Positions 47,584 through 60,798 of a DNA stretch of 64,000 nucleotides are shown in pieces (the first letter of the stretch is position 1; each line of letters begins with the position of its first letter). The notes beneath the pieces were generated by a model. That model ran no database searches. It was not told the DNA's origin and saw only the letters and a list, made by a program, of their open reading frames with translations. A program made the position numbers and the translations under genes. This stretch comes from Streptomyces sp. TLI_171 (GTDB lineage Bacteria > Actinomycetota > Actinomycetes > Streptomycetales > Streptomycetaceae): positions 3,906,001-3,970,000 of the forward strand of contig NZ_RAPS01000001.1 of the NCBI RefSeq assembly GCF_003610255.1, written 5' to 3'.

Positions 47584-48387
47584 ATGGCCGAGGAGCCCAC
47601 CGACGCCGAACTGCTCGCCCGTCACACGGCGGGCGACCCGGACGCTTTCGGGCTGCTGGTGCACCGGCACCGCGACCGCCTGTGGGCCGTCGCGGTGCGC
47701 ACCCTCGGCGACCGCGAGGAGGCCGCCGACGCGCTCCAGGACGCCCTGGTCTCCGCGTTCCGCGCGGCCGCCGGGTTCCAGAACCGCTCCGCGGTCACCA
47801 CCTGGCTGCACCGGATCGTGGTGAACGCCTGCCTCGACCGGGCCCGGCGCCGCGCCGTCCGCCGGGCCGAGTCGCTCGACCGGGACCCGGCCCCGCTGGA
47901 CAGCGCGCTCGGCACCAGCGAGGGCGCCGAGAGCCACGCGGTGCGCGCCGAGACCCGCCGCGAGGTGGCCGAGGCGCTCGCCCTGCTGCCCGCCGAACAG
48001 CGCGCCGCACTGGTGCTGGTCGACCTGCAGGGCTACCCGGTCGCCGAGGCGGCCGAGGTGCTCGGCGTCGCGGTCGGCACCGTGAAGAGCCGCTGCGCCC
48101 GCGGCCGGGCCCGGCTGCTGCCGTTGCTGCGCCACCTCGGTCCGGCCGGTGTTCCACGTGAAACACCCGCCCCCTCCGACCCGGGACCGGCGTCCGCCCG
48201 AAGCGATGTTCCACGTGGAACGCGCGCCCCGGCCGGCTCCGGACCGGTCCCCCGCCCCGGCGATGTTCCACGTGGAACCGGGCCGAGCGCCCCGCCCGGG
48301 CCGCGGGACGGGAACCCGAACCGGACCGCCCCCGTCACACCCTCGGACTCCGCACCCGCCCTGGAAGGAGATGCGACCCCGCGATGA
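47584..48387 (+). CDS. sigM: ECF sigma factor SigM with repetitive C-terminal extension
   Basis: A 267-residue ECF sigma factor. Region 2 contains DPDAFGLLVHRHRDRLWAVAVRTL and FRNRSA-like FQNRSAVTTWLHRIVVNACLD near residue 80; region 4 has LALLPAEQRAALVLVDLQGYPVAEAAEVLGVAVGTVKSRCARGRAR. The last ~80 residues are Pro/Ala-rich and contain three VPRGT or VPRET repeats translated from parS sites. ATG at 47584 follows AGGAGGGGG. It overlaps the anti-sigma gene by four bases (ATGA). Confidence 0.9.
   Translation: MAEEPTDAELLARHTAGDPDAFGLLVHRHRDRLWAVAVRTLGDREEAADALQDALVSAFRAAAGFQNRSAVTTWLHRIVVNACLDRARRRAVRRAESLDRDPAPLDSALGTSEGAESHAVRAETRREVAEALALLPAEQRAALVLVDLQGYPVAEAAEVLGVAVGTVKSRCARGRARLLPLLRHLGPAGVPRETPAPSDPGPASARSDVPRGTRAPAGSGPVPRPGDVPRGTGPSAPPGPRDGNPNRTAPVTPSDSAPALEGDATPR
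48151..48164. other. parS: parS site 1 of 3 within sigM
   Basis: GTTCCACGTGAAAC at the start of the first 57-bp unit. Confidence 0.88.
48208..48221. other. parS: parS site 2 of 3 within sigM
   Basis: A perfect GTTCCACGTGGAAC palindrome, 57 bp after the previous site. Confidence 0.9.
48265..48278. other. parS: parS site 3 of 3 within sigM
   Basis: A perfect GTTCCACGTGGAAC palindrome, 57 bp after the second site. Confidence 0.9.
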
Positions 48388-49328
48388 CGCCGCACCCGCC
48401 TTCCGACCACCCCGACCTGGACGCGCTCGCCGACCTCGCCGAGGAGCTGCTGCCGCCCGAGCAGGCCGAACCGCTGCACCGGCACCTGGCCGGCTGCCCC
48501 GCCTGCGCCGAGGACTACGCCGCGCTGCGCGGCCTGCCCGAGCTGCTGGCCGCCGCCCCCGCCCCGCCGCTGCCGCAGGAGGTCGCCGACCGCCTCACCG
48601 CAGCCCTCGCCGCCGAGTCCGCCGCCCGCGCCGAGGCCCGCCCCGACGTGCCGCCCGCCGACCGTCCGCAGGTCGCTCCGGGAGCGCCCACCGGCCCGTC
48701 CCGCAGCGGTGCACCGGCGGGCTCCCCCGGCGCAGCCACCGGCCCCGGACGTCCCGCCCGCCGTCGGCGGCGCGGCGCCCTCCTCCTGCTCGCCGGCGGG
48801 GCTGCCGCCCTCGTCGCGGCCGTCGGCGGCGTTCTGCTCAGCCTCGGGGACCGTCACCACGCCGACGTCACGGCCTCCTCCGCCCAGGACGCCAGGGCCA
48901 CGCACCAGGCGCTCAGCGGCGGAACCCCCGCCGCGGGCGGCACCGGTGGCCCGCACGCCCAGCCGAACGCGGGTGCCGCCGAGTCCTCCGGCACGCAGAG
49001 CGGGTCCGGCAGCGGCGACGCCGGCGGGCCCGACTTCACGGCCGATCAACTCCCGGCGCAGATCGACCGGTTGCTGGGTTCCACGGGCGCCCCGCAGCTC
49101 GGCCCCGCCACCGCTGCCGCCCCGGTCGTTCCTGCCTGCCTGACGGCGGCCGCCGGGCACCCCGGCGAGGCCCCGCTGGCCGCCGGTACCGGCCGCTACG
49201 CGGGCCGGCCGGTGGTGGCGCTGGTCTACCGCCCGGCGGGCGACGGCGGCCCGCTGGAGGTCTACCTGGCCACCCCGGACTGCCCGGGTTCGACGATCCT
49301 GCTGCACAGCACCGTCGCGGCCCCCTGA
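48384..49328 (+). CDS. Membrane anti-sigma factor (ZAS-like) for the upstream ECF sigma factor
   Basis: A 314-residue protein with an N-terminal zinc-finger anti-sigma motif (LHRHLAGCPACAED, H-x3-C-x2-C) near residue 35, a Pro/Ala linker, one transmembrane segment (GALLLLAGGAAALVAAVGGVLL) near 145 and an extracytoplasmic domain of about 140 residues with two cysteines (VVPACLTAAAG and TPDCPGS). It overlaps sigM by ATGA, so it is probably its cognate negative regulator, with the external domain as sensor. Confidence 0.85.
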   Translation: MTPHPPSDHPDLDALADLAEELLPPEQAEPLHRHLAGCPACAEDYAALRGLPELLAAAPAPPLPQEVADRLTAALAAESAARAEARPDVPPADRPQVAPGAPTGPSRSGAPAGSPGAATGPGRPARRRRRGALLLLAGGAAALVAAVGGVLLSLGDRHHADVTASSAQDARATHQALSGGTPAAGGTGGPHAQPNAGAAESSGTQSGSGSGDAGGPDFTADQLPAQIDRLLGSTGAPQLGPATAAAPVVPACLTAAAGHPGEAPLAAGTGRYAGRPVVALVYRPAGDGGPLEVYLATPDCPGSTILLHSTVAAP

Positions 49329-51759: not shown

Positions 51760-51773
51760 GTTTCACGTGAAAC
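51760..51773. other. parS: parS site between the GNAT gene and parB
   Basis: GTTTCACGTGAAAC, a perfect palindrome, 14 bp. Confidence 0.92.
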
Positions 51774-51808: not shown

Positions 51809-52885
51809 TCAGGACAGCCGCAGTCCCTGCTCACCCGGTGCCAGGCTGTCCAGGATCCGGTTCAGGTCCTCGACCGAGCCGAACTCCAGCACCACCTTGC
51901 CCTTGCCCAGCCGGCCGTCACGCTGCTGCGCGACCTCCACCTTGACCCGGGTCTCGAAGCGGTCGGAGAGCCGCCCGGCCAGTTCGTCGAACGCCGGGGA
52001 GTTCAGCCGGCCGGCCCGCGGGGTGGCCTTCTTCGCCTTCGGCTTCTCGCCGGACATCAGCTTGGCGATCTCCTCGGTGGCCCGCACCGTCAGCTGCTCG
52101 GCCACCACCCGGTCGGCCAGGCGCTCCTGGCGCTCGGCGTCCGGCACCATCAGGATCGCCTTGGCACAGCCGGCGCTGAGCGTCCCCGCCGCCACCTTCA
52201 GCTGTACCGAGACCGGCAGCTTCATCAGCCGCAGGGTGTTGGACACGTGCGGGCGGGACTTGCCGACCCGGTCCGCCAACTGGTCGTGCGTGCAGCCGAA
52301 GTCGCGCAGCAGCTGGTCGTAGGCGGCGGCCTCCTCCAGGGCGTTCAGCTCGGCCCGGTGCAGGTTCTCCAGCAGCGCGTCCAGCAGCAGCTTGTCGTCC
52401 TCGGTGGCCCGGACGATCGCCGGGATCGCCTCCAGCCCGGCCTCCCGGGAGGCCCGCCAACGGCGCTCACCCATGATCAGCTCGTAGCGGTCCGGGCCGG
52501 TCTGACGGACCACCACGGGCTGCAGCAGGCCGACCTCCTTGATGGAGGCGACCAGTTCGGCGAGCTTCTCCTCGTCGAACACCTCGCGCGGCTGGCGCGG
52601 GTTGGGGCTGATCGAGTCCAGCGGCAGCTCGGCGAACCGGGCGCCGTTCACCGGGGCCAGCGCCGACTCCAGCACGCTGCGCCGCTGGTCACCGGCCAGC
52701 TCCCGCAGGCTCTCGGCGGCGGCCTTGGCGGCCACCGTGCCACGGTCGGTCGGCACCGCGGGAGCCGCCGCGACCGGCGGGGCCTCGACCGGCGCGGGCG
52801 CCGCTCCGCCGGCGGCCGCAGCCGGCTGGGCCGCCGGGATCAGCGCCCCCAGACCCTTGCCCAGACCCCTGCGCATGCCACTCAC
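51809..52885 (-). CDS. parB: Chromosome segregation protein ParB
   Basis: ParB binds parS, hydrolyses CTP and spreads to form the segregation complex. The 358-residue protein has the N-terminal ParA-interacting segment ([16 protein letters not shown]), the ParB/Srx CTPase core ([35 protein letters not shown]), the helix-turn-helix DNA-binding region ([25 protein letters not shown]) and a C-terminal dimerisation domain. GTG at 52885 overlaps the parA stop (GTGA); ATG at 52876 is the alternative. Confidence 0.96.
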
Positions 52886-53884: not shown

Positions 53885-53898
53885 GTTTCACGTGAAAC
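53885..53898. other. parS: parS site upstream of parA (1)
   Basis: GTTTCACGTGAAAC, a perfect palindrome, 11 bp upstream of the chosen parA start. Confidence 0.93.
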
Positions 53899-53981: not shown

Positions 53982-53995
53982 GTTTCACGTGAAAC
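53982..53995. other. parS: parS site upstream of parA (2)
   Basis: GTTTCACGTGAAAC, a perfect palindrome, 97 bp from the previous site. The pair could allow ParB to control parAB transcription. Confidence 0.93.
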
Positions 53996-54981: not shown

Positions 54982-54995
54982 GTTCCACGTGAAAC
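54982..54995. other. parS: parS site upstream of rsmG
   Basis: GTTCCACGTGAAAC, one asymmetric pair from the perfect palindrome, between jag and rsmG. Confidence 0.88.
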
Positions 54996-60225: not shown

Positions 60226-60798
60226 TTGTCCACAGGAACGGGTGGGTTTTCCCCGTCCACAGGCATCCGAAGCCGAAGTTATCCAGAGGTTCCTCCACAG
60301 GGTGATCCCCGCTACGCTCTTCGGCGCAGGTCAACCCCCTGTGGACTTGTGCACAACGGTTATCCACAGCCTGTGGAGAACTGAGGGCCCGTCAGCCGGT
60401 CCACAGAGTTGTCCACCGGCCGTCCACAGGAAAAGGGGAGTTATCCCCAGGTTGTCCACAGGCCTGTCCACAGTTCGGCAACATCAACTCCCTTGTCAGG
60501 CTTGGGTGTGAAAGGCGTCACGTGATGTTGATCGACGACTGGGGATAACCCCGACGATTTCTGTGGATGAACCTGGGGATAACCTGTGGATACTCAGCGT
60601 GCCCTGTGGATTACGCTCCGTTGTCCACAGTCGGCCTAGGTTTTCCACAGTCGCCGTCCACAGGTCCTGTGGACAAAATATGGCCGCTGACCTGCGAAAA
60701 CGGGGTTATCCACGGTATCCACAGGCCCTACTACTACTGCTACACCTAGAGACCTCGTGACTTGATCAACAGTGGGGGTGGGCCGAATCTGTGGACAA
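60226..60798. other. oriC: Chromosomal replication origin oriC
   Basis: In this 1-kb gap between dnaA and dnaN, about 20 DnaA boxes cluster within 573 bp in both orientations. Perfect TTRTCCACA matches are at 60226, 60360, 60452 and 60621 (forward) and 60668 and 60790 (inverted). TTYTCCACA variants are at 60641 and 60372 (inverted), and many sites with one mismatch are at 60279, 60347, 60409, 60441, 60464, 60540, 60562, 60574, 60585, 60605, 60706 and 60715. This fits the streptomycete origin, which has about 19 boxes. Confidence 0.96.
60706..60742 (+). other. Candidate DnaA-trio/unwinding element at the end of oriC
   Basis: Two tandem DnaA-box variants (TTATCCACG 60706-60714, GTATCCACA 60715-60723), a short GGCC-type spacer and five trinucleotides CTA CTA CTA CTG CTA (60728-60742) match the order box, GC cluster, DnaA-trio known from basal unwinding systems. 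The function is inferred by analogy. Confidence 0.6.

Follow-up and report, generated by a model that had tools for sequence, protein, structure and literature searches.

The parS site is the DNA signal bound by ParB for chromosome segregation. Comparable described examples are the ParABS systems of Streptomyces coelicolor and S. venezuelae, where parS is a 14-bp palindrome that forms a cluster near oriC and, in S. venezuelae, is bound by ParB in vivo (PMC4852455, PMC12511625). Streptomycete parS sites are numerous, and parS are biased to one side of oriC (PMC8743542). In S. venezuelae all 17 sites are occupied by ParB, which spreads over 2.5–3 kb (PMC12511625) inside a complex that covers approximately 40 kb near oriC (PMC4852455). 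Two further systems bear on the position of parS relative to genes. In Mycobacterium bovis BCG, a single parS lies within the coding sequence of parA near oriC, and neither in-frame multiplication nor a change of host gene is described there (PMC2346475). In Pseudomonas aeruginosa, parS3 and parS4 are also close to oriC and ParB can alter local expression, these sites being intergenic and promoter-proximal (PMC5521831; PMC7022226).

The locus considered here combines the Streptomyces palindrome and its near-oriC clustering with a different arrangement. Whereas the operon copy in Streptomyces resides in an anti-sigma gene and appears usually to be single, judging from 71 Streptomyces-type genomes, here three tandem copies, mostly of the CC/GG form, occupy the upstream sigma factor gene, sigM. 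In contrast to the P. aeruginosa sites, they lie 0.57–0.68 kb inside the gene. The host operon is of the SigM type, with an extracytoplasmic function (ECF) sigma factor containing sigma-70 regions 2 and 4 and an ATGA-coupled downstream gene for a probable membrane anti-sigma factor, and differs from other such operons in a C-terminal tail lengthened by the parS array. Intragenic parS are already known; the in-frame, expanding, and relocating array appears new, and a search of mostly open-access literature returned no report of in-frame sigM or anti-sigma parS or of a VSRET signature.

The array and its host gene

The window, that is, the whole stretch of 64,000 nucleotides that was analysed, derives from Streptomyces sp. 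TLI_171, a genome assigned to Kitasatospora by its relatives. Its relevant features are as follows.

47584–48387, + strand: gene for a 267-aa ECF sigma factor, named sigM from synteny; approximately residues 1–185 form the folded core
48142–48384, + strand: Pro/Gly-rich C-terminal tail, predicted disordered (alignment, AlphaFold2), hosting the parS array
48151–48164, unstranded: parS 1, GTTCCACGTGAAAC, frame 0 of sigM, VPRET
48208–48221, unstranded: parS 2, GTTCCACGTGGAAC, frame 0 of sigM, VPRGT
48265–48278, unstranded: parS 3, GTTCCACGTGGAAC, frame 0 of sigM, VPRGT
48151–48207, + strand: 57-bp unit 1, identical to unit 2 at 41/57 positions
48208–48264, + strand: 57-bp unit 2, identical to unit 1 at 41/57 positions
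48363–48370, + strand: GGAAGGAG, within the final sigM codons; probable ribosome-binding sequence for translation of the anti-sigma gene
48384–49328, + strand: probable membrane anti-sigma factor gene, without parS here; the Streptomyces homologue has one
51760–51773, unstranded: parS, GTTTCACGTGAAAC, downstream of the parB 3′ end
51812–52885, − strand: parB, start codon approximate; Pfam ParB_N 5e-35, HTH_ParB 9e-32
53885–53898, unstranded: parS, parA 5′ end; would be read as VSRET in frame with parA, given a translation start upstream of it
53982–53995, unstranded: parS upstream of parA, not in the parA frame (FHVK)
54982–54995, unstranded: parS, GTTCCACGTGAAAC, near the gidB start

Sequence matching and reading of the open reading frame bear out the initial annotation, which had placed three parS sites in the 3′ part of sigM: perfect palindromes of the form GTTYCACGTGRAAC begin at 48151, 48208, and 48265, exactly 57 bp apart from start to start, and are read in frame as VPRET, VPRGT, and VPRGT. 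With up to two mismatches allowed, the window contains 10 parS matches, against a mean of 0.01 in dinucleotide shuffles. Genome-wide, 13 perfect sites occur in 8.46 Mb, all inside 255 kb (contig 1, 3,862,623–4,117,181), and a reversed control pattern has no match across the same 8.46-Mb genome. The cluster is oriC-proximal, with dnaN at window position 60772; the sigM array lies approximately 12 kb from oriC, and parA and parB are encoded 3.5–6 kb from it (Pfam ParB_N, HTH_ParB, AAA_31). When the parS at 53885–53898 is read in the parA frame, its peptide is kept across Kitasatospora, and this stretch may be coding or leader.

The names sigM and anti-sigma follow synteny, with trxB, trxA, parB, parA, and gidB downstream, and for sigM also the Pfam content of its product, which comprises sigma-70 regions 2 and 4 only (Sigma70_r2, 5e-16; Sigma70_r4_2, 6e-16). 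These two regions are followed, as in SigM-type operons, by an anti-sigma gene whose start overlaps the sigM stop as ATGA (48384–48387); its identity is given by synteny and homologue architecture, a Pfam search with the anti-sigma protein of the window having returned no match. AlphaFold2 models most of the SigM core confidently, whereas block means fall to 43–58 from residue 181 onward. The disordered tail is a plausible permissive place for parS in this predicted structure, because pLDDT is below 50 at most of residues 189–248. Alignment with Streptomyces SigM shows the array as extra sequence inserted in the tail after a conserved HLR and before an equally conserved (G)N....V segment. Conservation also extends to the final sigM codons, which include GGAAGGAG, near-identical in most Kitasatospora, and ATGA.

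Relocation within the operon and the proposed role of the array

Where the Streptomycetaceae have an operon site, it is found in one of two genes. In the Streptomyces-type genera, the sigM tail is without parS and the downstream anti-sigma gene carries it instead, in a linker, in frame 0, and read as VSRET. Among genes from named records, 71 of 77 anti-sigma genes contain the site, and the six without it belong to Kitasatospora, Streptacidiphilus, and Wenjunlia. The valine of the anti-sigma VSRET motifs is encoded by GTT in 81 of 81 cases. Linker sites number one or two and follow the N-terminal domain (L040, L042–L114). In a wider set, all sigM sites (46/46) and all anti-sigma sites (101/101) are in frame 0, and the two hosts never occur together in one genome. 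The sigM tail is the host in Kitasatospora, part of Streptacidiphilus (g3), and genera g4 and g12; on the sigM tree, a fast tree in which one "none" state is a contig edge, the host gene changed six times. The position of parS differs by approximately 400 bp between genera. Four genera (g2, g5, g9, and g15; genomes G070, G073, G077, and G083) have no parS in either sigM or the anti-sigma gene and carry canonical parS elsewhere, and no canonical parS was found in sigM or the anti-sigma gene of 20 genomes of the class outside the Streptomycetaceae.

From these comparisons of sequence, we consider it highly probable that the sigM-tail palindromes are chromosomal parS, that is, ParB–CTP loading sites of the oriC-proximal centromere, kept as DNA in a tolerant disordered tail and multiplied by in-frame 57-bp duplication. 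The disordered tail would tolerate VSRET or VPRGT and in-frame changes in length, while the reading frame would be fixed by the downstream ATGA overlap and the ribosome-binding sequence. A 57-bp in-frame tandem duplication adjoining an existing parS would then yield three copies, each of which, if bound by ParB as we infer, would add loading capacity and redundancy approximately 12 kb from oriC.

A regulatory function in addition to loading is unlikely, although several observations are in keeping with one. Once loaded in the stretch that separates the sigma core from the anti-sigma gene, ParB could spread or block RNA polymerase and so lower the expression of sigM, the anti-sigma gene, or both. 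Sites lie inside this two-gene operon in most of the family; spreading over 2.5–3 kb, as in S. venezuelae, would cover the sigM start 0.57 kb upstream; and P. aeruginosa ParB represses genes adjoining the promoter-proximal parS3/4 (PMC7022226). However, at native ParB levels repression in that organism is limited to genes whose promoter adjoins a parS, and in Bacillus subtilis loss of Spo0J left parS-adjacent genes unchanged (PMC7022226). The host position that shifts by some 400 bp between genera and the copy number that varies from one to four argue against a conserved regulatory arrangement, and some genera (g2, g5, g9, and g15) have no operon site at all. Repression of sigM by ParB, as suggested in the initial annotation, would be possible within the spreading range seen in S. 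venezuelae but is unlikely.

Copy number and the 57-bp repeat

Turning from the location of the sites to their number, we obtained sigM from 69 of 70 Kitasatospora genomes, the remaining genome giving no match. All 69 tails contain perfect parS, for a total of 114 sites, every one in frame 0, a count that overstates independence, the sites being related by descent. One site is present in 41 genomes, two in 17, three in five, and four in six. On a tree of the sigM core, a quick tree with many weak forks, the state of one versus multiple sites changed at least 8 times and the copy number at least 14 times. Genomes with more parS copies in sigM have more parS genome-wide, and their remaining parS average approximately 8.5–10. 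Between sister species, tail spacers are often near random while the parS sites are intact. The initial account of the array, confined to this one locus, proves too narrow, given that tail parS are genus-wide (69/69) and that the one/multiple state changed repeatedly; the in-frame retention that had been proposed extends to all 114 sites. Judged from this tree, copies elsewhere in Kitasatospora have been gained and lost repeatedly.

Within the window, the initial annotation read the 57-bp spacing as a tandem duplication with likeness along the full unit. This holds for units 1 and 2, which outside parS match at 28 of 43 positions where 16.5 are expected, a likeness greater than that produced by shuffling letters (p = 5e-5) or codons (p = 6.5e-4), or by a gapped comparison with shuffled codons (p = 0.002). 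It does not hold for a third unit: the sequence after site 3 matches the spacers at 16/43 positions, which is the chance level, and only the parS itself is alike. This is the pattern that duplication of a single 57-bp unit beside an existing site would leave, and such an event would by itself explain the present array. No other member of the window clade has a significant tandem-duplication signal, because their spacers are too diverged.

It is improbable that the three sites were instead gained independently with a coincidental 57-bp spacing. Spacings between sites in relatives do vary, from 27 to 114 bp, and significant spacer likeness is confined to the adjacent spacers of the window, with unit 3 having just the site in common; against this stand the matches between units 1 and 2 beyond the site, which withstand codon shuffling, the equality of both steps of the array, and relative G037, which also has two sites 57 bp apart, though in a spacer that is not clearly homologous. 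A conserved helical phasing between sites was likewise considered and rejected, since spacings span 27–114 bp, with multiples of three as the sole constraint found. The spacings of close parS pairs elsewhere in apparently noncoding sequence include 73, 97, 31, 29, and 62 bp, none of them a multiple of three. The window clade has further close parS clusters 30–44 kb from sigM (G028:C1:4317329–4317433, G014:C9:26207–26277), in which some spacings (29 and 62 bp) are not divisible by three.

Selection on DNA and lineage-specific changes of parS

Motifs chosen by peptide alone, namely, V[SP]R[EG]T in Kitasatospora tails (n = 118), are perfect parS in 114 cases. Their valine is GTT in 118 of 118 and their arginine CGT in 117, and the third base of the Ser/Pro codon is A in 115. 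GTT accounts for only 1.3% of valine codons in the genes of the window and for 10 of 187 in the tails beyond the motif, and no such constancy is seen at the first silent base past the 14-mer, which is A in 71 motifs, C in 26, and G in 21. Variation within the motif is found at letter 4, which is T or C, and letter 11, which is A or G (Y4/R11), changes that are non-silent and common, as from VSRET to VPRGT. They alter amino acids yet leave the ParB consensus intact, and therefore point to selection on the DNA. Four motifs keep the peptide without a perfect parS, decayed PRET-type copies retain part of it, and the tail motif may have weak protein-level effects. The constancy of frame is partly due to inheritance, and the TGA stop that the canonical site holds in frame 2, together with the FHVK that it would encode in frame 1, helps to explain it.

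That selection in SigM acts instead on the amino acids V(S/P)R(E/G)T, for binding or processing, with the likeness to parS merely following, is very improbable and was rejected on the codon evidence: the invariable frame 0 and the copies with retained peptide and broken palindrome would fit it, but valine is always GTT and silent changes are almost absent, amino acids vary at precisely the two degenerate parS letters, the identical peptide recurs in the unrelated anti-sigma protein, and the tail reads VTRVT where parS changed. Selection thus acts on parS as DNA, the tail amino acids being mostly a by-product with, we infer, no dedicated role.

Lineage-specific changes of parS are consistent with this DNA-level reading. 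In the clade of the window (12 genomes), GTTCCACGTGGAAC occurs in 6–9 copies per genome, as compared with none in most of Kitasatospora, and 35 of the 41 sigM sites of the clade are of this type. In the ParB of this clade (L214–L224), the position corresponding to Caulobacter ParB K171, a residue that contacts parS (PMC7383237), is invariably Lys, as against Arg in the other Streptomycetaceae ParBs compared. This change is not necessary as a cause of the CC/GG sites, as G033, G041, and g7 have C/G sites with Arg.

A larger departure is seen in one Streptacidiphilus subclade with almost no canonical parS. Genome G134 has four copies of GTCACACGTGTGAC (L234:901, 4945, 5801, and 8424), one of which lies in the sigM tail and is read as VTRVT; the other three correspond in position to the parS that relatives carry following trxA, next to parB, and upstream of parA. 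The variants of G103 are GCTTCACGTGAAGC/AAAC, hybrid parS occur in G107, G110, G116, G122, and G128, and the sister lineages of the changed Streptacidiphilus (L234, L235–L240) keep GTTTCACGTGAAAC. On sequence comparison, the GTCACACGTGTGAC lineage seems to have switched its centromere sequence, and in it the sigM-tail site changed similarly to the other parS of the same genomes. The ParB of the changed lineage also differs within its HTH domain. In both the C/G and the GTCACACGTGTGAC lineages, the sigM sites are conserved as DNA and co-vary with the other parS. Tails that keep their amino acids after losing the parS core, which the initial annotation had regarded as counting against its reading, exist in Streptacidiphilus (VTRE(T/A)V); the DNA reading stands there as well, because the other parS positions of these genomes changed similarly. 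The codon test, the relocation between two genes, and this tracking of lineage-specific changes together uphold the earlier view that the encoded tail is a by-product of the parS DNA.

A broader proposal, which we put forward tentatively and as slightly short of even in probability, is that the parS of Streptomycetaceae acts as a centromere unit that tolerates being coding sequence and can relocate. It would settle in frame in disordered regions of oriC-proximal proteins (the SigM tail, the anti-sigma linker, and possibly the ParA N-terminus), multiply by in-frame duplication, and evolve with ParB. Each lineage's parS could then be read from short peptides such as VSRET, VPRGT, and VTRVT, and the strength of the array, set by in-frame copy number, would tune ParB loading. 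The operon offers a clean natural case of a centromere element that shapes protein sequence, and one in which parS evolution can be followed simply through coding sequence. Natural strains with one to four copies at a single locus allow a test of whether ParB loading is determined by the number of parS copies, and the lineage with a seemingly changed parS provides a direct test of ParB–parS co-evolution.
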